Below, piece after piece: positions 4,162-40,058 of a stretch of DNA of 40,106 bases. A model generated the notes under the pieces. That model had not been told where the DNA came from and did no database searches. It worked only from the letters and a program-made list of their open reading frames with translations. The position numbers and the translations under genes were made by a program. The DNA comes from Deltaproteobacteria bacterium (GTDB lineage Bacteria; Bdellovibrionota_F; JAHFAK01). The stretch spans positions 4,748 to 44,853 of the forward strand of contig JAHFAK010000003.1 of the NCBI GenBank assembly GCA_023250585.1. The letters run 5' to 3'. Each line of letters starts with the position of its first letter. The first letter of the stretch is position 1.

Positions 4162-4252
4162 GTGTTGATGATAAGAATGTGCTGAAGTGCTGATGTTAAG
4201 AAAAAAATCTTCTCCTAACATCAGCACCTCAGCACATTCTTATCATCAACAC
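4162..4252. repeat. Long hairpin, 37-nt arms with 36/37 complementarity
   Basis: gtgttgatgataagaatgtgctgaagtgctgatgtta (4162-4198) pairs with taacatcagcacctcagcacattcttatcatcaacac (4216-4252). Confidence 0.9.
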
Positions 4253-8450: not shown

Positions 8451-8519
8451 GAGTTTGTCATTTCCTCAATTGATTTCTTTCTCGCATTCTCTCTATCATC
8501 AATAACGAGTATATTTATA

Positions 8520-8962
8520 GGAATGGCTCAGTTAATGGGAAAAATGAAGATGGATCCCGTGGTCAAGCCACGGGATGACAAACGGGAAATACTCTCAAAT
8601 TGTCATCCCGCGGCTTGACCGCGGGATCCAGTTCCATAGAGAACATGCCTACTTCCTAATAACCGAGAAGGTGTGAAAAAATCAAGAGAGAGCTCCATTT
8701 TCTGAAAAAGAGCGATAGGAAACTGAAATGTCCCATTCGACTGTCATTGCGAAAACCTGAAGGGTTTGAAGCAATCTCTTCTTACATATCCAAAGATTGC
8801 GGAGTTTATCCCGAATCTGCTTGAGATTGCTTCGTCGGACAAAAAAACGTGTCCTCCTCGCAATGACACGTGAGGGATCACACTCGAAATGACAACGTGC
8901 GGTCTTCTGTCATTTCGAACAAAGTGAGAAATATGATTCTTTCACACCTTCCGAGGCATTAC
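8520..8962. mobile_element. Composite MITE-like element M1 (modules A+B) with perfect 8-bp TSD TATTTATA
   Basis: Ends GGAATGGCTCAG / GTAATGCCTCGG (rc of right end); TATTTATA at 8512-8519 and 8963-8970; modules repeated elsewhere in window. Confidence 0.85.
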
Positions 8963-9005
8963 TATTTATATTGATTTTAATGACTTTTTAAGATTCTATT
9001 TTAGT

Positions 9006-9620: not shown

Positions 9621-10865
9621 ATGGACATAAAAGTACCCCATTTAGCAGAAAATATTACCGGTGGAATCGTAGCTGCAGTTTTAGTCAAAGAAGGTGATTC
9701 AGTAAAAAAAGACCAAACGGTTGTTGAATTGGATACCGAAAAGGCGGTAGCTGCAGTACCTACAAAAGAAGCTGGCATCGTCGAAAAAATTTTGGTAAAC
9801 GTGGGAGATAATGTTCGTGTTGGACAAACATTAATTAAAATAAAAACGACAAGCGCGGGTAAACAAAAAGATACAGCAGAAGTTTCAGAAGATAAAGAAA
9901 AACCTAAACCTCAAAGAAATAACCAACAAATAAGCGAGAGAGGTTCTTCATATAAATATCACTCGTCAACTGATTCTGTTCCGCCTACTGCTCCTCATGT
10001 GCGAAAAATTGCGCAAGATTTAGGTATTGACCTTACGATGATTCAAGGAAGTGAACGTGGCGGCAGAATTATTCTCAGCGATTTAAAACGTTATATTCAG
10101 CATATTCAAAATATTTCTGAAGGAAGAGACAATATCCCCAAGGTGGCTGATGCAGTCAGTATACCTGATTTTTCTGCATGGGGCTCTGTTAAAAAAGAAA
10201 AAGCAGGAACAGTTCGACAAAAAATTGCAGAAAAAATGACGCTTTCGTGGACAACAATTCCTCACGTAACACAATTCGATGAAGCAGATATTACCAATCT
10301 TTTAGCACTTCGAAAAAAAGAATTGTCTGGGTTTGAATTACAAGGCGTTCGTCCAACAGTAACAGGGTATCTTATTAAAATTCTCGTCCCACTTTTGAAA
10401 AAGCATCGGAAATTCAATGCAAGTTATAATGTAGCCGCTCAAGAAATACTATATAAAGAGTACCTCAATTTAGGAATAGCAGTGGATACTGAACAGGGTC
10501 TTATTGTTCCTGTTATTAAAAATATTGATACCATGGATCTTGTGAAGCTATCAAAAGAACTTGAGTCAATTGCTGATAAGGCACGTAAGAGAGCAGTATC
10601 GCTTGAAGATATTCAAGGAGCATCATTCACCATTTCAAATCAGGGAGGAATAGGGGGCATGCATTTTACTCCCATAATTAATCCTCCAGAAGTCGCAATT
10701 TTAGGAATAGGAAAAGCAAAAGAAATGCCCATAGTTTTTGAAGGTAAGATTGTTCCGAGAATGATTCTTCCTCTGTGTCTTTCATATGATCATCGTTTAA
10801 TCGATGGTGCTGATACCGCTCGCTTTATGAAAGATTTAGTGGAAGCACTTGAACATATTACGTAG
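9621..10865 (+). CDS. aceF: Dihydrolipoamide acyltransferase (E2), single lipoyl domain
   Basis: Lipoyl motif VVELDTEKAVAAVP; E3-binding APHVRKIAQDLGIDLTMIQGSERGGRI; catalytic LSYDHRLIDGADTARFMKDL. Confidence 0.95.
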   Translation: MDIKVPHLAENITGGIVAAVLVKEGDSVKKDQTVVELDTEKAVAAVPTKEAGIVEKILVNVGDNVRVGQTLIKIKTTSAGKQKDTAEVSEDKEKPKPQRNNQQISERGSSYKYHSSTDSVPPTAPHVRKIAQDLGIDLTMIQGSERGGRIILSDLKRYIQHIQNISEGRDNIPKVADAVSIPDFSAWGSVKKEKAGTVRQKIAEKMTLSWTTIPHVTQFDEADITNLLALRKKELSGFELQGVRPTVTGYLIKILVPLLKKHRKFNASYNVAAQEILYKEYLNLGIAVDTEQGLIVPVIKNIDTMDLVKLSKELESIADKARKRAVSLEDIQGASFTISNQGGIGGMHFTPIINPPEVAILGIGKAKEMPIVFEGKIVPRMILPLCLSYDHRLIDGADTARFMKDLVEALEHIT

Positions 10866-11016
10866 GAGAGGTTGGATAACAGCTCAGTAAATGGGAAAAA
10901 TGAAGATGGATCCCGTGGTCAAGCCACGGGATGACAAACGGGAAACACTCTCAAATTGTCATCCCGCGACTTGATCGCGGGATCCAGTTCCATAGAAAAA
11001 CTATCCCACCTCTCCT
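10864..11016. mobile_element. Degenerate module-A element M2 with arms pairing to the flank
   Basis: agctcagtaaatgggaaaaatgaagatggatcccgtggtc... matches M1/M4; right TIR is missing and replaced by tatcccacctctcct, near-complement of aggagaggttggata at 10864-10878. Confidence 0.75.
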
Positions 11017-11043
11017 AAAACATAATTTTATAAAGGATATATT

Positions 11044-16680: not shown

Positions 16681-17997
16681 ATGACATATAAACATGGCCG
16701 AAGTCTTTTGCTAACAAAAGCTTTGCTTATTTTTCTTCTTCTTTCGCAGCAAGAACTTGTATACGCATATACCCCTAAATATAATACGACTATTCATATA
16801 TTTTTGAAAATGGAAGAAGAGGCTGGATTTGATGTTACAACTCCTGATGAAGAAGGTAGAACTGTGTATGAGCTTGTCGATCAAATCATTGATAGAGCAA
16901 TTAAAACAATAGGGATACAAGAACCTAAAAAGATATACACTGAATATGAGAAAGTGGGAATATTAACAAAGATTCATTCTATTCTAAAAGATGATTTTAA
17001 GGTAATATATGACAACTCAATTGTTCCTGATACGAGAGAATTATTGAGTAAAGGATTAAGCATAAAAAAGTTAGTGTGTGTAGATTATTCTTTTATATAT
17101 AAAGGAATAGGTGAAATAATCAAAATTCCCTTGTATGTAGTCTCAGCTCCCGAGCATGCTTTTATTAGGTGGGATAGCGATGGCAAACATGACGCTTTGA
17201 ATACAGCGAGTAGTATCAAAGGGGATATTAATTGGGAAACCACCGCAGGAAAAATATATTCGGATGACTTTTACATAAAACTACTCAATATACCACCAGA
17301 ATCTATTAACAACAAAGTATATTTATATTCCTTAAACGAAAAACAAACACTATCATTACAATATTTGAATTTGGGTATTGTTTATAATGATCTTGGGAGA
17401 AGAGAAGAAGCAATCACCGTATATACAAAGGCAATTGAGTTAAATCCAAAGTATGCAGGTGCATATAATAATTTGGGTAATGTTTATGATGATCTTGGGA
17501 AAAAGGAAGAAGCAGTTGGAGCGTATAAAAAGGTAATTGAATTAAATCCAAAGGATGCAAGTGCATATAGTAATTTGGGTAATCTTTATGATGATCTTGG
17601 GAAAAAGGAAGAAGCAGTTGGAGCGTATAAAAAGGCAATTGAATTAAATCCAAAGGATGCAGATGCATATTATAATTTGGGTACTGTTTATCAAGCTCTT
17701 TGGAGAACAGAAGAAGCAATAGGAGCATATAAAAAGACAATTGAGTTAAATCCAAAGCATGTAAATGCATATAATAATTTGGGTACTGTTTATCAAGCTC
17801 TTTGGAGAACAGAAGAAGCAGTTGGAGCGTATAAAAAGGCAATTGAGTTAAATCCAAAGCATGCAAATGCATATTATAATTTGGGTAATGTTTATCAAGC
17901 TCTTGGGAGAACAGAAGAAGCCAATAAGAATTTTCGAAAAGCTGAAAAATTAAAAAAACCACCATTTGTACAAGCACTCTTGTGTAGAATTTTTTAA
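16681..17997 (+). CDS. Exported transglutaminase-like/TPR protein
   Basis: Signal-like N-terminus; CVDYSFIYKGIGEIIKIPLYVVSAPEHAFIRW...INWETT; six or so C-terminal TPRs. The ORF-track TTG start (16639) lies inside the promoter. Confidence 0.8.
   Translation: MTYKHGRSLLLTKALLIFLLLSQQELVYAYTPKYNTTIHIFLKMEEEAGFDVTTPDEEGRTVYELVDQIIDRAIKTIGIQEPKKIYTEYEKVGILTKIHSILKDDFKVIYDNSIVPDTRELLSKGLSIKKLVCVDYSFIYKGIGEIIKIPLYVVSAPEHAFIRWDSDGKHDALNTASSIKGDINWETTAGKIYSDDFYIKLLNIPPESINNKVYLYSLNEKQTLSLQYLNLGIVYNDLGRREEAITVYTKAIELNPKYAGAYNNLGNVYDDLGKKEEAVGAYKKVIELNPKDASAYSNLGNLYDDLGKKEEAVGAYKKAIELNPKDADAYYNLGTVYQALWRTEEAIGAYKKTIELNPKHVNAYNNLGTVYQALWRTEEAVGAYKKAIELNPKHANAYYNLGNVYQALGRTEEANKNFRKAEKLKKPPFVQALLCRIF
17430..17935 (+). 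repeat. Near-identical ~102-bp tandem units encoding TPRs
   Basis: Recurrent (gga)agaagcagttggagcgtataaaaaggcaattga(a/g)ttaaatccaaag.atgca..tgcatat..taatttgggta. Confidence 0.85.
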
Positions 17998-18403
17998 AGA
18001 AGAAATAGACACGTATTATTATGTGGCTGTTGTGTACCATGAGATAGGCCATTTCGTATTTAAGAATGTTTTATCGAGAGGATTAAGAATACAATGGGCT
18101 GAAGTGAGGGACGAAGAAGTATTCCCAATTATACTCGATGATATGTATGGTAAACAGTTTCTGTGGGAAGAAGAATTTTGTATCTTTTTTTCATTTTATT
18201 ATCTTGAGAAATATATGAGGAGAAGTAATATGAAAGAGAAAGCAGAAAAAATCAAAAAAAAGCTTGCACATCTTCCAAAACGACAGAGCATTCTTAATGA
18301 TCTAGAGAAAAATGTAATGCATAAAACTAAAGATGAAAACAAGAGATCAAAGGAATGTTCCGAAAAGGTATTAAAAAGAGCTTGGAGATTTTTTACTGGA
18401 TAG
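17966..18403 (+). pseudogene. 5'-truncated HExxH metallopeptidase-like fragment
   Basis: YYVAVVYHEIGHFVFKNVLSRG...WEEEFC; its first codons overlap the 3' end of the TPR gene in another frame. Confidence 0.5.
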
Positions 18404-18443: not shown

Positions 18444-18571
18444 TATTTTTTTATTTTGATCAAATGCTTGGAGATTAATGAGAATATCCATAGCCAAATT
18501 TGACTAATAAGTATAACATATGAATTACCTTATTGTTTTGCAGGAAAAATAGATGGGATATAGATAAATAG

Positions 18572-18981
18572 GTACCAGCTCAGTAAATGGGAGTGATTAA
18601 GTAATTTCTCTATGGAACTGGATCCCGCGGTCAAGCCGCGGGATGACAATTCGAGAGTGTTTTCCGTTTGTCATCCCGTGGCTTGACCACGGGATCCATC
18701 TTCATTTTCCCATTAACTGAGAAGGTGTGAAAAAATCAAGGGAGAGCTCCATTTTCTGAAAAAGAGCGATAGGAAACTGAAATGTCCCATTCGACTGTCA
18801 TTGCGAAAACCTGAAGGGTTTGAAGCAATCTTTATTTGCTTGAGATTGCTTCGTCGGGCAAGAAAACGTGCCCTCCTCGCAATGACAGGTAAGAGACCAC
18901 CCTCGAAATGACAACGTGCGGTCTTCTGTCATTGCGAACGAAGTGAGAAATATGATTCTTTCACACCTTCTGAGCTATTAC
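18572..18981. mobile_element. Composite MITE-like element M3 (A inverted + B), TSD ATAAATAG/ATGAATAG
   Basis: Ends GTACCAGCTCAG / GTAATAGCTCAG; 7/8 TSD at 18564-18571 and 18982-18989; shares modules A and B with M1. Confidence 0.82.
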
Positions 18982-19040
18982 ATGAATAGTACAATTCCAC
19001 TTGCATTCTAATAATGCTATGATACGTATTAATATTCACT

Positions 19041-21674: not shown

Positions 21675-24053
21675 TCAGATGCTTACAGGTTGTAAAAGCT
21701 GGATCTCTTCTCGAATGATTTCATAATACAAACTTTCTTTGTCCTTAACATACGGGATCACGAGTAATTCTTTAGCTCGTGTCATTGCAACATAGAGCAG
21801 GCGAATCATTTCGTGGGTGTCTTTTTTCTTTTCGTGTTCGAGTGCTTCATCGTAATTATATGTTTTGAGAGAAGCTAATTTAATTGCCATGTGTTTTTGT
21901 AGACGATCAACAATAACTCGCGGTGAATATTTTCGTTCAGAAAAGAGATTTGCAAGAATGACTACTTTAAATTCCAGGCCTTTTGCTTTATGGATCGTGA
22001 GGAAACTAACCGCATCTTTTATTTCTTCATCGAGCGGGAGTTCATCAAAGGAGTAATGTTTTGTATTAATAAGCCAATCAGTAAATTCATTGAGAGAAAT
22101 AGGGTATTGTGCGCTCAGAATATAGGCTTTACGAATAAGTTTTTCGAGATTGTATGCTTTCTTTTTATGAAATTTCTGAGATACATATAAACTATGAATA
22201 TGAGTTTGATCAAAAATAGTTCGTAAAAATTGCGGAACTGTTTGTTCATCTTTGAACTCATATAATTTTTTTAAACAGGTAAATACTTCTGCAAGATGAG
22301 GATCTTGAGAAATAGGAATATCTAAAAATGAATGATATTCTGAAAGATTGCCTAATAAAAAAAGTTGTTCATCCGAGACAGCAAAAAGATCACTTTTGAG
22401 TGTTCCAATCAGTGCAATTTTGTCCGATGGGTTTTTAAAAAGAGAAAGTAAGTTGATAATGCTCTTAATTTCTTCACGTGTGTAAAATTCTTTTTCTAAA
22501 AAACGATGCGGAATATTTTCTCGGCGAAATATATCCTGATAAACAAAAATATCAGATGTTTGTGGGAAAATGACGGCAATGTCTTCATAGGTAATAGAAT
22601 GTTCAATTGAAAGTTTTTTAATAAGCGAAGAAATGGTGAGCGCTTCATTTTCTCGTTGATCTTTAAGTGATAAAGCTTCTGCTTCAAGTATCTGAATTGC
22701 TTTGGGGAAATAATTTTGTTCTTTATGGTATGGTTCAAGCGGAATATAATTTGGTTGGGTAGCCACTTTAGAATCTTTTTTCATCTGCGCGCTAAAAGTA
22801 CGATTAATAAAATCAATAAGCGCTGAAACCGAGCGAAAATTTTGTCGGATGGAAAGAATGTTTGTTTCATTAAAATAGCGATCTTTAATGGCTTCATACA
22901 TTTCGATATCAGCTTTTCTGAAACGATAAATCGATTGCTTTGGATCTCCGACAATAAAGAGTTTTCCTCCTTGAAGTTCTATATCGTTGAGTTGACTTGT
23001 TTTGTTATATTTTTCACAGATATACAGGACAATTTCCATTTGTAATGGGTCAGTGTCTTGAAATTCATCGATCAAAAAATATTCAAATTTATTTTTCCAA
23101 TAATTTCTGAGCGTAGGATTATCGCGAAGAATACCACGAAGCTCGATCAAAAGATCATCAAAATCCATAAAGTGTCGTTTCTTTTTCTGTTCTCCAAAAA
23201 AAATAAAAAATTCAGTGATTTTAGAAATGAGATCAACCGTAAGATTGTGAAAAAATACTTTTTGGTAATGAGCAATGTTTATTTTTAATTCTGACATTAA
23301 TTGTTTGAAATACGCACATGATTCTTTAGAGTCCCAATTTTTGGCGTTTCCCGCATGTGCTTTTTTGAGATGAAGTCGTTCGAATGATTTATTGAGAAGA
23401 CAGGTTTTAATCGTTAAAAATTCTTGATATCCTAAATCGGCTGTGTCACGTAAATGTTCATTGGTGTTATTTTGTATTTTTTCTGATAAGGCCATAGCCG
23501 TTTCATACAAAGCATCAAACGAAAAATGTATTTTTTGTGGCAAACTTTCAGAGATTATATCGCGATATCGGTATAATTCCTGGGTGAGAGAATAAAACAT
23601 ATTGAGTGATATACCATAGCGCATAGCCGTAAAAAAAATACTCTCTTTTTCAGTTAACATGACTCGCAGCCAATTATTCCATTGTTTTAGGAAAAAGAAA
23701 CTTCCCTGTGTTTCATCAAGAAGAATAAAATCAGGATTAAGCCCGGCTTCAAAAGCTTTTTCTTTCAATAATTGATGAGCAAAAGCGTGTATAGTTCCAA
23801 TAAACATTCTATGAAAAGGAAGGGCCATATCTTCTAACTTCTGATAAAGGCGATTCTGTATTTCTTTTGCTGCTTTTTCAGTAAATGTTAACGCAACTAT
23901 TTTTTCGGGAGCTGTTTTCTTTTGAGTGAGAAGGGCTGCAATGCGATCAATCAAAAGAGAAGTTTTACCGGTACCAGCGCCTGCTTCAACAAGTAATGAG
24001 GTAGTGAGATCTTGGCGGATACGATCTCTTGCTTTTTGATCCTGTGGTAGCAT
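21675..24053 (-). CDS. UvrD/AddA-family superfamily I helicase
   Basis: VEAGAGTGKTSLLIDRI, DEFQDTDPLQ, VGDPKQSIYRFRKAD, TIHKAKGLEFKVVIL, LLYVAMTRAKELL. Confidence 0.93.
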   Translation of the reverse strand: MLPQDQKARDRIRQDLTTSLLVEAGAGTGKTSLLIDRIAALLTQKKTAPEKIVALTFTEKAAKEIQNRLYQKLEDMALPFHRMFIGTIHAFAHQLLKEKAFEAGLNPDFILLDETQGSFFFLKQWNNWLRVMLTEKESIFFTAMRYGISLNMFYSLTQELYRYRDIISESLPQKIHFSFDALYETAMALSEKIQNNTNEHLRDTADLGYQEFLTIKTCLLNKSFERLHLKKAHAGNAKNWDSKESCAYFKQLMSELKINIAHYQKVFFHNLTVDLISKITEFFIFFGEQKKKRHFMDFDDLLIELRGILRDNPTLRNYWKNKFEYFLIDEFQDTDPLQMEIVLYICEKYNKTSQLNDIELQGGKLFIVGDPKQSIYRFRKADIEMYEAIKDRYFNETNILSIRQNFRSVSALIDFINRTFSAQMKKDSKVATQPNYIPLEPYHKEQNYFPKAIQILEAEALSLKDQRENEALTISSLIKKLSIEHSITYEDIAVIFPQTSDIFVYQDIFRRENIPHRFLEKEFYTREEIKSIINLLSLFKNPSDKIALIGTLKSDLFAVSDEQLFLLGNLSEYHSFLDIPISQDPHLAEVFTCLKKLYEFKDEQTVPQFLRTIFDQTHIHSLYVSQKFHKKKAYNLEKLIRKAYILSAQYPISLNEFTDWLINTKHYSFDELPLDEEIKDAVSFLTIHKAKGLEFKVVILANLFSERKYSPRVIVDRLQKHMAIKLASLKTYNYDEALEHEKKKDTHEMIRLLYVAMTRAKELLVIPYVKDKESLYYEIIREEIQLLQPVSI

Positions 24054-24060
24054 ATGTTGT

Positions 24061-24217
24061 GTATAGCTCAGTTAATGGGAAAAATGAAGATGGATCCCGT
24101 GGTCAAGCCACGGGATGACAAACGGGAAACACTCTCAAATTGTCATCCCGCGGCTTGACCGCGGGATCCAGTTCCATAGAAAAATTACTTAATCACTCCC
24201 ATTAACTGAGGGATTAC
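24061..24217. mobile_element. MITE-like element M4 (module A only)
   Basis: Perfect inner 14-bp TIR ctcagttaatggga/tcccattaactgag; outer right end GTAATC; imperfect TSD tatgttgt/tctgttat (6/8). Confidence 0.75.
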
Positions 24218-24287
24218 TCTGTTATCTTTATTTTACTTTCTTTTAATTCTATACTATAGTGTTTTTAACTATTAAGGAAAGATATTT

Positions 24288-25603: not shown

Positions 25604-27072
25604 AACGAATTATTTTGTGCAGTTTATTTTTAGTAAGTTTATTGCCATTAGTCAAAGCCGATGAGCCATTAGTTATTCGCCTTTCTGATTATGCAAAGAA
25701 AAAAATTCCTATAGCCATTACTGAGTTTCAAGATACGGGTGAAACACGAGAAGGTTTAAGCGATGCTGACCGTATTAATCTTTCACTGCTTTCAAGTTTA
25801 CATACCATTGTTATCAAAGATTTAGAGCTTACTAATTGGTTTAAAATTATTGCTGAAGAAGCATTTATTGCTGATCTCAAAAAAGAAGGCTATGGCGAAT
25901 CTGATATTAAATGGAATGATTGGAAAGCAATCGAGTCTACGCATTTAGTAAAAGGCACCTATGAATTTGACACCAAAACGAGAGATCTCATAATTACCGC
26001 ATATCTTTATAGTATTCCGGGCAAAAAAATTCTTTTTAAGAGAAGCTTTACGGGAAAATTTTATGGAAGCCTGCCGAGTGTTAGGAAATTTGCGCATAAA
26101 ATTGCTAATCGCATAGTCGAGCAAGTCACCGGTGAAATGGGTATTTTTGATACGAGAATTGCATTTATTGAACGTAAGCTTGAGATGAAAAGCGATATTG
26201 AGCGAATAAAGAAACCAGCAAAAGTGCTTGATACACTTAAACAGCAAGGTTCTACTGAAGGCAAAGATTCAAGAAATAAGGAATACATTTTCTCCAAAGA
26301 AATTATGATTATGGACTTTGATGGAGGAAACATCTCTCCACTGACAAGTAATCGAACACTTTCTATTTCTCCACATTGGTCACGAGATGGATCGCTTATC
26401 GTCTACACTGCCCGCAATAAAAAAAATGGACGATGGGATATGTATGTATATGATATTTTAAAATGGCAATCACAAAGACTTACATCCTTTGAACATTGGG
26501 ATGTTTTTTCTCCAAACTTTTCACCCCAGGAAGATTTGATCGCTGCAACAATTAGTAAAAATGATAGCGATATCTATATTTTAAATAAAGAAGGTAAAGT
26601 TTTAAATCAAATCACCTCTCAGTGGAATATTGATATTTCCCCATCATGGAGTCCTGATGGAAAGAAAATTGCCTTTAGTTCGGCAAGGACGGGTAAACCT
26701 CAAATTTATATCATGAATTGGGATGGCTCCAATATAGAACGAATTACGTTTGAAGGTCGGCATAACGATGAACCGGCCTGGAGTCCCAAAGGTGATAAAA
26801 TTGCATATCGTGGACAAGACATCGACGGAGAATCCGATATTTTAATTTATGATTTAAAAGCAAAAAAGAGTGAACGCATGACCTATGATACGAAAGACAA
26901 TGAATATCCAACGTGGTCGCCGGATGGACGATTCATTGCATTTCATTCATCAAGAACAGGCATGAATCAAATTTTTATTATTAATGCTACGGGGCAAGCA
27001 GGTAGCGAACGCAAGGTAACCAACTGTAAATATGATTGCATGAGCCCTAATTGGTCGCCGCGACTGAAGTAG
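25600..27072 (+). CDS. tolB: Tol-Pal system protein TolB
   Basis: Repeated SPSWSPDGKKIAFSSARTGKPQIYIM beta-propeller motifs; operon context. Confidence 0.94.
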   Translation: MKRIILCSLFLVSLLPLVKADEPLVIRLSDYAKKKIPIAITEFQDTGETREGLSDADRINLSLLSSLHTIVIKDLELTNWFKIIAEEAFIADLKKEGYGESDIKWNDWKAIESTHLVKGTYEFDTKTRDLIITAYLYSIPGKKILFKRSFTGKFYGSLPSVRKFAHKIANRIVEQVTGEMGIFDTRIAFIERKLEMKSDIERIKKPAKVLDTLKQQGSTEGKDSRNKEYIFSKEIMIMDFDGGNISPLTSNRTLSISPHWSRDGSLIVYTARNKKNGRWDMYVYDILKWQSQRLTSFEHWDVFSPNFSPQEDLIAATISKNDSDIYILNKEGKVLNQITSQWNIDISPSWSPDGKKIAFSSARTGKPQIYIMNWDGSNIERITFEGRHNDEPAWSPKGDKIAYRGQDIDGESDILIYDLKAKKSERMTYDTKDNEYPTWSPDGRFIAFHSSRTGMNQIFIINATGQAGSERKVTNCKYDCMSPNWSPRLK

Positions 27073-27491
27073 GTTAGCGGTTTGCGGTGAGCGGTTAGCG
27101 AAAGAATATGATAATAAAAGGATTTCAGGACTTAGAAGTTTGGAAAAAGGCTATAGTGCTTGTGAAAAATATTTATTTGATTACTCAAACTTTTCCAAAA
27201 GAAGAAACATATGGTATGACTTCTCAAATTCGGAGGGCAGCAGTCTCAATCCCTTCAAATATTGCTGAAGGTAAGGCAAGACAATCAAAGAAAGAATATG
27301 TCCAGTTTTTATTTATTGCACTTGGTTCAACAGCTGAAGTACAGACTCAAATAATCATTGCAAAAGAATTACAGTATATTACTGAAAAAAATAGGTTAGA
27401 TATTTTAGAAAATTTAGATCATATTGCAAGAATGTTGCGGAGATTAATACAAGAACTTAATCGCTCACCGCTTACCGAAAACCGCTAACCT
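27071..27491. mobile_element. Inverted-repeat-bounded S23/four-helix-bundle element
   Basis: aggttagcggtttgcggtgagcggttagcg (27071-27100) vs rc of 27462-27491, 27/30 identical. Confidence 0.75.
27108..27488 (+). CDS. Four-helix bundle protein (23S rRNA intervening-sequence / S23 family)
   Basis: DLEVWKKAIVLVKNIY...SQIRRAAVSIPSNIAEGKARQSKKEYVQFLFIALGSTAEVQTQI. Confidence 0.92.
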   Translation: MIIKGFQDLEVWKKAIVLVKNIYLITQTFPKEETYGMTSQIRRAAVSIPSNIAEGKARQSKKEYVQFLFIALGSTAEVQTQIIIAKELQYITEKNRLDILENLDHIARMLRRLIQELNRSPLTENR

Positions 27492-27513
27492 CTATCACTT
27501 TGGAGGAAAAATT

Positions 27514-28272
27514 ATGTTTTTACGAAGATCATTCTTTATTACATTACTTTTCGTATGTGCATTTGCAGTATCGTGCACTCATGTGCCTACCGATGAAATG
27601 GAAGAAGCCCGGCTTGCATTGAAAGATGCAGCGAAAAAAGGTGCGCCAACATATGCAAGTAAAGAATATGAAAGTGCACAAGAAGAATATGATAAAGCCA
27701 ATAATTCTATCGCGGAGCAAAATTATGAAAAAGCTTACAAGCATGCTAAAAATGCCACTGAGCTTGCCTATCTTGCGCGTCGTATAGCAGAAGAAAAAGC
27801 AAAACAAGACAAAGCGGGCGCAGAGGAAAAAGTAAGCCTTCGCGAAGATGAGCAAGCTAAGAAGCCTGTTGGGAATGATACTCTGAGTGAAGGGGAAGGA
27901 GTCTTGTCTGCCGAAGCAGCAGAAATTCTTTCTCACAGCGAATGTAAGGATATTAAAACCATCTATTTTGATTTTGATCAATTTTCCTTGCGTCCTGATG
28001 CTATTCAAGCAGTTCAAGTTAATCTTGCCTGCATTAAGCTCGGTGAATTTACCTTCAGTCTTGAAGGGCACTGTGATGAGCGTGGAAGCAATGAATATAA
28101 TTTAGCATTAGGAAAAAGAAGGGCAGAATCGGTCAGGGATTATTTAATCCAAATGGGCATTAATCAAAAACGTATAGAAACGGTAAGTTTTGGTGAAGAA
28201 AAACCAGTTGCACTCGGTAAAAATGAAACGGCCTGGGCACAAAATAGACGGGTAGAATTCATAATAAAATAG
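27514..28272 (+). CDS. pal: Peptidoglycan-associated lipoprotein (OmpA C-terminal domain)
   Basis: Lipobox AVSC; IYFDFDQFSLRPDA...LEGHCDERGSNEYNLALGKRRAESVRDYL; extra N-terminal helical repeat region. Confidence 0.93.
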   Translation: MFLRRSFFITLLFVCAFAVSCTHVPTDEMEEARLALKDAAKKGAPTYASKEYESAQEEYDKANNSIAEQNYEKAYKHAKNATELAYLARRIAEEKAKQDKAGAEEKVSLREDEQAKKPVGNDTLSEGEGVLSAEAAEILSHSECKDIKTIYFDFDQFSLRPDAIQAVQVNLACIKLGEFTFSLEGHCDERGSNEYNLALGKRRAESVRDYLIQMGINQKRIETVSFGEEKPVALGKNETAWAQNRRVEFIIK

Positions 28273-30883: not shown

Positions 30884-30974
30884 AAATACGGAAACTCAAA
30901 CGGATATTCGGGAATAATCAATTCTTTTAGAAAAAGAGTCAGCTCTCATTTTCATCGAAACATATTATCATATC

Positions 30975-31082
30975 GTAATGGCTCAGTTAATGGGAAAAAT
31001 GAAGATGGATCCCGTGGTCAAGCCACGGGATCCATCTTCATAGAAAAATTACTTAATCCCCCCATTTAACTGAGCTGGTACA
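30975..31082. mobile_element. MITE-like element M5 (collapsed module A), TSD ATCATATC
   Basis: atcatatc at 30967-30974 and 31083-31090; ends GTAATGGCTCAG / GTACCAGCTCAG (1 nt extra on right). Confidence 0.78.
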
Positions 31083-31138
31083 ATCATATCATATTTATTT
31101 CTTTAAATTGTACTTGTTATTTGATATACTATTAATTA

Positions 31139-34857: not shown

Positions 34858-34879
34858 TCTTTCTCCTAAGACGTTTTTA

Positions 34880-34996
34880 GCGAGGGAGTGTACATGTTCT
34901 CTTTTTTATGCCTATCGACGTCGCTTCCATAATACTATTAAGAACAGGAAAGCGCGCTCGATAGGCATAAAAAAGAGAACATGTACACTCCCTCGC
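34880..34996. repeat. Long hairpin H1: perfect 39-bp stem around 39-nt core
   Basis: 34880-34918 is the exact reverse complement of 34958-34996; core cgtcgcttccataatactattaagaacaggaaagcgcgc. Confidence 0.95.
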
Positions 34997-35003
34997 ATGA
35001 AAC

Positions 35004-37485: not shown

Positions 37486-38175
37486 TTACAACAAAAACGG
37501 TACTAATTTCCTGTAATCTTCATACGCTGGATTCTTCGATAATTCGCGTTCTTCAATGATACATACTCGAATATACGTAAAAATAAGAATTGGCGCAAAG
37601 AAGAGGGTAATGAGTGTTGGCCAACCAAATAACCATCCCAGAACAACAAGAATGAAGCCGGTATATTGCGGATGTCTTGAATAGTTATAAATTCCTTGAG
37701 AGACCAGTGTATGTGTTGTGAGATTTTTATAAAGAGTGATCCATCCAATAATTACGAGTGTAGTACCAATAAGCATAAGTATACTTCCATAAATCATAGG
37801 AATGGTCATCCCAATTGCAACCCCAAGAAAATTAAACACGATGGGAGTAGAAGGTAAAGCTATATTTTCTGTGCTCATGAATCGTCCGACAAAATAAACC
37901 GTTAAAGGAATTCCATACATTTCAATAAAGAGTGAAATAAAAAAGGCACCCACTAATGAAAATTCCGTCCAGTTTATTTTTCGTCTAAAAAAAAGAGGAA
38001 TGAGGAATGAACAAAAGAGAACAATATTGATAATGACCATTGGCCACTCGTTTTGAATCACTGAGTGCAAAAGATTTCCTGAAAGATGAAATGTGAAGTG
38101 ATGATAAAATGAATCGAAGAATACAAACGGAATTACAAAAAATATACACGCAAGTAAACGGAATATCCACTTCAT
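37486..38175 (-). CDS. Isoprenylcysteine methyltransferase/PEMT-like membrane protein
   Basis: SQGIYNYSRHPQYTGFILVVLGWL...EERELSKNPAYEDYRKLVP. Confidence 0.82.
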   Translation of the reverse strand: MKWIFRLLACIFFVIPFVFFDSFYHHFTFHLSGNLLHSVIQNEWPMVIINIVLFCSFLIPLFFRRKINWTEFSLVGAFFISLFIEMYGIPLTVYFVGRFMSTENIALPSTPIVFNFLGVAIGMTIPMIYGSILMLIGTTLVIIGWITLYKNLTTHTLVSQGIYNYSRHPQYTGFILVVLGWLFGWPTLITLFFAPILIFTYIRVCIIEERELSKNPAYEDYRKLVPFLL

Positions 38176-38178
38176 GGT

Positions 38179-38338
38179 GTAATGCCTCAGTTATAAGGGT
38201 GTGCGTATGTTCTCACAAAGAATTTTTATCGACGTCGCTTCCATAAAACTATTAAGAACGGGTAAGCGCGCTCGATAAAAATTCTTTGTGAGAACATACG
38301 CACACCCTAACTTCCCCATTAACTCACTGAACGGTACC
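38179..38338. mobile_element. MITE-like element M6 with perfect TSD TTCATGGT, containing hairpin H2
   Basis: ttcatggt at 38171-38178 and 38339-38346; ends GTAATGCCTCAG / GGTACCGTTCAG; inner perfect 37-bp stem 38196-38232/38272-38308. Confidence 0.9.
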
Positions 38339-38339
38339 T

Positions 38340-40058
38340 TCATGGTATTTCTTTTAAAACCGTTAAGAACTCATCGGGCTCAACAGCTCCACTAATAGTT
38401 TTGTTTTCAAGAAATGCACCAGAAGAATCAAAAAAAAGATAGGTGGGTACTCCGCGGAGTGCATATTTTTCAGCGAGCTCTTGATTGACACTATTATCAT
38501 CAAAGGTAAGATCGACTTTAATTTTAGTAAATCGCTCAAGTTCAGTTACTACATGGTTATCCTGAAAAGTTGTTTCTTCCATAATTTTACAGGGAAAACA
38601 CCACTCAGCATAAAAATCAACAATCATTGGTTTTTTTTCTTTCTGAGATTCTTCGATAATTCCTGGCTGATAGCGGATCCATGTTACTTTTTGTGGGATA
38701 CCATGCCATCTATATGAGAAGAAGCAAAAAACAATAAGCACCAGCGCAATAATTCTTTTGATAAATTTAAAAAATTCAAGATGATTGCCTGTTCTATCAA
38801 TAAACCCCAAGTAAATCGCACTTATAAAAAGCAGCAAGAGGAGTGCCTTTATGTAAAGTGTTCCTCCGAGAATAGGCTGAATAATATAGAGAGCCATTGC
38901 TATAAGAATAATTCCAAGGAATTTTTTTACCCATATCAGCCATTCGCCAGATTTCGGTAGGGATTTTATTGATCCTGAGAATAGTGCAAGTACTAAATAG
39001 GGCAGGGCTAAGCCTAAAGAAAATACAAAGAAAATAATAAATCCTAAAGTGCGTGATCCTAAATGAGATACAAATGCAAGAAGTCCTAGAATAAAGGGCC
39101 CTACGCAGGGTGCGGCAACGAGGCCTAATGTTGCACCCATGAAAAATGAACCGACGATTCCTTTTTTGCCTTCTTTTGGTAAAAGTTTAATAGGAATTTT
39201 TATTTCAAACAAGCCAAACATCGAAAGTGCGAGAAGAACAATGAAAAATGCAATAGCGATCAGAACAATCTTTTGTTGTAAAAGCATGCCAAACATATTT
39301 CCCGTCACTGCCGCAAAAAAGCCCAAGAAAGAATACGTGAGACAAATACCTAATGCATACGCAGTTCCTAAAAAAAATAGTCGAGAAAAACGTGACTCTG
39401 CCTGTTTAACAAAAAATCCTATTGTTATAGGAACCATAGGGTAAACACACGGGGTAAGATTAAGAAGTAAGCCAGCAATAAATAATAATAAAAATGCGAG
39501 AAAGTAATTTCCACCTAAAAAGAGATGTTGAAATTTTTGATTGTATTCATTTCCTTGCATTCCTGGTTCAGGAGCTTCTGTAATTGTTATCTGAGAGCTT
39601 AGATCAATGTGTTTCGTTTGTGGCTTTAAACATGAAATATCATTACATGCTTGATAATTAATAGTTAGTATACAGGATGGGTTTGTGACTTCTTTAACAA
39701 ATCCTTCTGCAGTTATAGTTACTATTCCAGTATACAGTGATAATTCTTTTGAAAATGTTTTTAATTTTTTAGTAATAGGCTCAGGATATTTTATATTTTT
39801 TATATCGATTTGTGGGCATTCTTCAAAGCTGATCGTTGTAGGAATGAGAAAATTAGTGTTTGGTTCATGAGAATTAATGTGCCAAGGAGAATCAATGGTC
39901 AGTGTAGTTTTTATTGAGACATTATTTGCTTCATGAGTCAGTTCAGAATTAATATGCACAGGATTTTCTTGCGCAAAACTAAGGGAAAAAAGAATGAAGT
40001 TAAAAATAATTAGTATACCTGTCGTTATATGTAAAAGACGAGTTATAAATTGCTGCAT
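38340..40058 (-). CDS. dsbD: Thiol:disulfide interchange protein DsbD
   Basis: LNLTPCVYPMVPITIGFF, LVAAPCVGPFILGL, C-terminal thioredoxin YAEWCFPCKIMEE; signal peptide. Confidence 0.95.
   Translation of the reverse strand: MQQFITRLLHITTGILIIFNFILFSLSFAQENPVHINSELTHEANNVSIKTTLTIDSPWHINSHEPNTNFLIPTTISFEECPQIDIKNIKYPEPITKKLKTFSKELSLYTGIVTITAEGFVKEVTNPSCILTINYQACNDISCLKPQTKHIDLSSQITITEAPEPGMQGNEYNQKFQHLFLGGNYFLAFLLLFIAGLLLNLTPCVYPMVPITIGFFVKQAESRFSRLFFLGTAYALGICLTYSFLGFFAAVTGNMFGMLLQQKIVLIAIAFFIVLLALSMFGLFEIKIPIKLLPKEGKKGIVGSFFMGATLGLVAAPCVGPFILGLLAFVSHLGSRTLGFIIFFVFSLGLALPYLVLALFSGSIKSLPKSGEWLIWVKKFLGIILIAMALYIIQPILGGTLYIKALLLLLFISAIYLGFIDRTGNHLEFFKFIKRIIALVLIVFCFFSYRWHGIPQKVTWIRYQPGIIEESQKEKKPMIVDFYAEWCFPCKIMEETTFQDNHVVTELERFTKIKVDLTFDDNSVNQELAEKYALRGVPTYLFFDSSGAFLENKTISGAVEPDEFLTVLKEIP

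Follow-up and report, generated by a model that had tools for sequence, protein, structure and literature searches.

The window, by which we mean the whole 40,106-nt stretch analysed here (assembly GCA_023250585.1, JAHFAK010000003.1:4,748-44,853, forward strand; contig C117), has a G+C content of 36% and carries six copies of a short repeated element, each on the + strand. It belongs to a 2.24-Mb draft assembly of 164 contigs, many of which have these repeats at their ends. The original prediction had placed copies at six sites and had given flanking 8-mers that match at 8/8, 8/8, 8/8, 7/8 and 6/8 positions. Direct reading bears out these matches, and all six sites exist; that near 10864, however, is not a complete copy, having no right terminus and no duplication. 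For any single, predefined pair of ends, an 8/8 match would arise by chance with a probability of about 3e-5. All six copies are intergenic, in a window whose intergenic share outside the elements is only 11%.

Copy 1 (8520-8962) is a composite with termini GGAATGGCTCAG and, as reverse complement, GTAATGCCTCGG, and it lies between two identical copies of TATTTATA (8512-8519 and 8963-8970; 8/8). It joins a B-type left half to an A-type right arm, and a further segment, module C (8668-8950, + strand; ends AAGGTGTGAAA / TTTCACACCTT), sits inside its right terminus with the mutated pentamer CCGAG on both sides (8663-8667 and 8951-8955). A retropepsin-like aspartyl protease ORF (PF13650; 9236-9616) adjoins this copy and is flanked by the pyruvate dehydrogenase E1 and E2 genes. 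Copy 2 (10876-11001) is a partial B-type element that begins at 10876 with ATAACAGCTCAG (a ATAACAGCTCAGTAAATGGG terminus). It is bracketed by a 16-bp inverted repeat, TAGGAGAGGTTGGATA at 10863-10878 and TATCCCACCTCTCCTA at 11002-11017, as if its arms had extended into the flanks. Copy 3 (18572-18981) combines B with a module C (18722-18969, + strand) that has CTGAG on either side and an RNA-fold z of -5.8; its duplication is ATAAATAG (18564-18571) / ATGAATAG (18982-18989), a 7/8 match. Copy 4 (24061-24217) is a complete 157-bp B-type element folding into one long hairpin (z = -13.0), between TATGTTGT (24053-24060) and TCTGTTAT (24218-24225; 6/8). Copy 5 (30975-31081) is a 107-bp deletion derivative of B with ATCATATC on both sides (30967-30974 and 31083-31090; 8/8); an extra A at 31082 separates its final TAC from the right 8-mer. 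Copy 6 (38179-38338) is a 160-bp A-type element, a long perfect hairpin with the conserved loop (MFE -77.8 kcal/mol, z = -14.7), flanked by TTCATGGT at 38171-38178 and 38339-38346 (8/8). An A-type hairpin at 34873-35003, which we call A', has perfect arms without GTA termini and without a duplication.

Three other features of the window deserve mention. An unrelated, near-perfect inverted repeat of 43 bp with a 5-nt loop occupies 4162-4252, with a gene on either side. An ORF at 17259-18023 contains six tandem repeats of 102 bp (34 residues). An imperfect 54-bp inverted repeat (27048-27101 / 27461-27514) surrounds a small ORF (27108-27488), and the two together possibly constitute another element.

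The terminus of these elements is the 12-bp sequence GTANNNNCTCAG, which usually continues TWAATGGG(G) and is present at both ends. The predicted form, GTAATGNCTCAG, thus needs correction, whereas the predicted start at GTA holds genome-wide. Across 116 ends, the first three positions are G (91%), T (95%) and A (97%). Position 4 is A in 79%, positions 4 to 7 are loose, and positions 5 to 7 read T/C, A/C/G and G/C; the first seven bases are most often GTAACAG, GTAATCC, GTAATGG, GTAATGC, GTACCAG and GTAATAG. Thereafter come [C/T]TCAG, T, W, A and a run of GGG. Within the window, the 12-mer alone is not significant (12 seen with up to 2 mismatches, 8 expected). Significance derives from the duplications and from the longer terminus GTANNRNCTCAGTWAATGGG, which at up to 3 mismatches has at least 144 matches genome-wide versus 9 for the reversed pattern. 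A second arm type, GTANNVNYTCAGTTATNAGGG, has 64 matches in the genome versus none in the control.

Genome-wide, we curated at least 58 elements with defined termini, typically 107-443 bp long, with a modal length of 156-158 bp; most have 8/8 or 7/8 duplications. Because agreement of the flanks had been used in that curation, the analysis was repeated blind to them: each left terminus was matched to the closest right terminus at a distance of 70-450 bp, giving 76 pairs. Perfect flanking repeats numbered 21 at length 8, 4 at length 9 and at most 5 at each of the other lengths from 2 to 15. At least 7 of 8 flanking positions matched in 35 of the 76 pairs, versus a mean of 0.6 (maximum 4) over 1000 rounds of partner shuffling. 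The target duplication is thus 8 bp, occasionally 9, and is AT-rich with no fixed motif. It is from these duplications, not from strain comparison or empty-site alleles, that insertion is inferred. Copies lie outside ORFs in 46 of 54 cases tested; 7 of the remaining 8 were examined, and each lies either at the end of a gene or in a 5' extension of a reading frame. Seemingly interrupted ORFs were accordingly rejected as such, and no disrupted gene is claimed.

The full sequences of the 58 elements contain no transposase gene, in agreement with what had been claimed for the window. The elements are thus shorter than 600 bp, lack a transposase gene, and have terminal inverted repeats and a duplication of constant length, as is characteristic of MITEs. 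The predicted non-autonomous family with 8-bp duplications is therefore found throughout the genome, with 8-bp repeats at its flanks and ends that align at GTA. We conclude with considerable confidence that these are miniature, non-autonomous DNA transposons of a large family, presumably mobilised in trans and with exchangeable interiors. Long palindromes, intergenic placement and high copy number would also befit REP/REPIN-type elements moved by a RAYT (an HUH tyrosine enzyme), or hairpins that spread through recombination and not by transposition, and the A' hairpins, lacking termini and duplications, point the same way. Yet a sharp 8-bp duplication is unexpected from HUH single-strand transposition or from recombination, the elements have defined termini and sizes, and the GTAG/CGTC tag that defines REPs (PMC3733652) is absent. 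The duplications count against such an origin for the GTA-bounded units, the A' hairpins excepted, and we consider it most improbable.

Between their common termini, the elements are mosaic. Class A (34 copies) is a long hairpin with the loop TATCGACGTCGCTTCC...GGAAAGCGCGCTCGATA; class B (21 copies), GGATCCCGTGGTCAAGCCACGGGATGAC...GTCATCCCGCGGCTTGACCGCGGGATCC, also folds into one long hairpin. A/B fusions exist, copy 1 of the window being one. Module C, mostly 240-283 bp long, is found added to A or B, and in three cases (L160, L167, L176) it is joined to A arms at a short common sequence. Its position is narrowly defined: of the 24 places in the genome that match its end, 22 have a CTCAG-type pentamer from a GTA terminus next to C on one side or both, and the two at C76 have none. 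When C lies in a mutated terminus, the same mutated pentamer is found on both sides (CTCGG/CTCGG in copy 1; CGGAG/CGGAG at C99). This pattern is most simply explained if module C is a second miniature element that entered the terminus at CTCAG and probably duplicated 5 bp. Recombination at CTCAG could also have placed it there. At L168 and L178, C lies directly between two GTA termini with no recognisable 8-bp duplication.

The stems of class A present a different problem. Over 36 copies, divergence between the two 32-bp arms of one copy is 1.0%. Comparing a given arm from copy to copy gives 36% (28% when restricted to GTA-bounded copies), and the loop gives 10%. Nearly all changes in the stem between copies are paired; they are exact Watson-Crick swaps over the 32 bp, with hardly any G-U or mismatched intermediate. 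The loop is inverted in two copies (C66:6243 and C87:3086), and in our reading it occurs in both orientations relative to unequal outer arms. Homogenisation of arms together with inversion of the spacer is a signature of template switching between inverted repeats (PMC8604942), a process that PMC7202029 describes in E. coli. We therefore prefer the view that DNA-polymerase template switching keeps the arms of a copy identical and also flips the loop.

Selection could instead maintain the perfect stems for the sake of a structure in RNA or DNA, such as a regulatory RNA, a terminator or an RNase III site. The great stability of the fold (z to -14.7), the paired changes and the proximity of copies to genes are consistent with this idea. 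It would, however, have to accommodate the near-absence of G-U and mismatched intermediates, which is our reason for preferring template switching, and the inverted loops, which homogenisation predicts and selection on RNA does not. A search of Rfam gave tRNA as its only match, no family matching the elements. We thus regard selection on the structure as improbable.

Four A' hairpins, without termini or duplications, are known: that in the window and those at C117:49448, C113:42077 and C22:33150. The three outside the window share the loop but have very different stems, each of them perfect or nearly so. It is conceivable, though highly unlikely, that stems are remade during transposition itself, a single strand snapping back and one arm being copied from the other. 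If this were true, each new copy would from the outset have a perfect stem of its own, enclosing the conserved loop, the GTANNNNCTCAG tips would be an exchangeable shell open to any hairpin, and the route of transposition would combine staggered-cut integration with hairpin-primed synthesis. Under the preferred template switching, arms that differ roughly 30-fold less within copies than between them, in dozens of palindromes of one genome, constitute a natural data set for the process.

An important question is which transposase moved these elements. The original prediction had suggested IS66-type mobilisation, and the part of it that concerns the GTA(A) ends and 8-bp duplication stands. As positive controls, we used ten plasmid loci with an IS66 transposase. 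In eight, GTAAGCG is at both ends, accompanied in seven by a perfect 8-bp duplication; in the other two it is at the sole end found. The same kind of finder thus recovers known IS66 termini and perfect duplications in seven plasmid loci. ISPpa5a and ISPpa7 likewise have GTA(A) ends and 8-bp duplications (PMC3281130). An IS66 TnpC is present in class-mate G001, a larger genome of another family and the sole one of the same class among 20 relatives, and one Solidesulfovibrio IS66 end, GTAAGCGCTCAATAAGG, bears a faint likeness to GTANNNNCTCAGTTAATGG. These similarities favour an origin as internal deletion derivatives of IS66, moved by its TnpC.

Other observations run counter to that origin. Profile searches of the 164-contig draft found neither TnpC (PF03050) nor TnpB (PF05717). 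A 12-bit PF03050 match at C113 was rejected as a different ORF, and a TnpB match at C122 as an out-of-frame reading of a gene resembling feoB. GTAAGCG, present at one end or more in 10 of 10 controls, is absent from the 116 element termini, among which the nearest form, GTAAGCC, occurs once. Further, the IS66 copy of G001 has a candidate right end, GTAAGCGC, that does not resemble the GTANNNNTTCAG repeats also present in G001. IS66 is the best-fitting named family by its ends and duplication length; we hold membership, and with it mobilisation by IS66 TnpC, to be a tentative proposition, somewhat short of probable. GTA ends and an 8-bp duplication are insufficient for an assignment to IS66.

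The alternative is some other DDE transposase that makes 8-bp duplications (IS256, ISL3, IS1595, IS6/IS26, IS21 or an undescribed type), to which we give about an even chance. Such duplications are not specific to IS66, and a terminus of three fixed bases, four loose ones and CTCAG fits no named family tested. On the other side, IS256, ISL3, IS1595, IS6/IS26 and IS21 are not known for GTA ends. The assembly-wide profile searches, which covered PF03050, PF05717, PF01609 and PF00665 only and thus left room for such an enzyme, found no rve-type transposase (PF00665) and two DDE_Tnp_1 genes (PF01609), with unrelated or no detectable ends. The gene at C116 (L156:880-2643) encodes an intact, IS1634-like DDE transposase of 587 aa; it was rejected as the mobiliser for its terminal inverted repeat, CTAGCGTGAGTTTATT, which is unrelated to the elements. 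The transposase at C103 was rejected too, being broken into frames and having no GTA ends.

The full-length insertion sequence proposed as parent was thus not recovered by these four profiles, and no autonomous copy or transposase with the elements' termini was found; in an assembly fragmented at repeats, this absence is weak evidence. It is plausible that the parent has been lost from the genome, and plausible too that a multi-copy parent collapsed in the short-read draft.

The ends themselves have relatives elsewhere. G001 has its own repeats with GTANNNNTTCAGTRAATGGG ends (GTANNNNTTCAG-ended and GTANNNNTTCAGTRAATGGGGGATTTCAGTTT-ended; loci L153, L154, L095, L092 and L147), including a 177-bp unit with ends GTAGCCCTTCAG / GTATGCCTTCAG and a 6/8 duplication. 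The interiors are not common to the two genomes. From the related ends, the termini therefore seem older than this species. The exact terminus pattern has five scattered single hits in GTDB r220, near chance, in a collection from which the window's own genome is apparently absent. Viral contigs gave no match to the terminus or the A loop, and plasmids none to A, B or C.

We propose the following mechanism. A transposase acting in trans would recognise the two termini and move everything between them, its 8-bp staggered cut leaving the duplication. If only the termini are recognised, the interior can vary freely, so that hairpins A and B and their fusions could be carried between the same ends. 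Module C, as a second miniature element, would have entered the CTCAG of those ends, probably with its 5-bp duplication, and template switching within the palindrome would homogenise the arms of each copy and flip the loop. The transposase may have been lost, may be unassembled or may belong to a family outside those searched. Of the named families, an IS66-like enzyme ranks first as a single candidate, though a doubtful one. Hairpins with no relation to one another are enclosed by one and the same pair of short tips, which are also almost the only place where module C lands. This is a new and unusually mosaic MITE family, which we do not assign to IS66.

Known systems share parts of this design. 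IS66 elements resemble those described here in their GTA(A) ends and, in the plasmid controls, exact 8-bp duplications; the present elements differ in having no GTAAGCG, no protein-coding content and no IS66 gene in the assembly. MITECca01 of Cardinium (PMC9769881) is likewise a lineage-restricted, high-copy MITE, of about 240 bp, but its parental IS982-family element is present with the same ends, whereas no parent was found here. Maize Ac/Ds (PMC3260210) also places heterogeneous interiors inside the same short terminal repeats; its transposase is a eukaryotic hAT enzyme, and the analogy is one of architecture only. The closest in architecture, by its published description, is QMITE2 of Coxiella burnetii (PMC5896051), an intergenic element of 150-190 bp with terminal inverted repeats, 7-9-bp direct repeats unique to each copy and a very stable hairpin. 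Its small forms consist of the hairpin alone, with neither terminal repeats nor duplications, comparable to A', and it is a specific landing site for IS1111 (PMC5896051), much as the termini here are for module C. QMITE2, however, has a GTAG REP and one type of interior, whereas the family described here carries several interiors in one shell.
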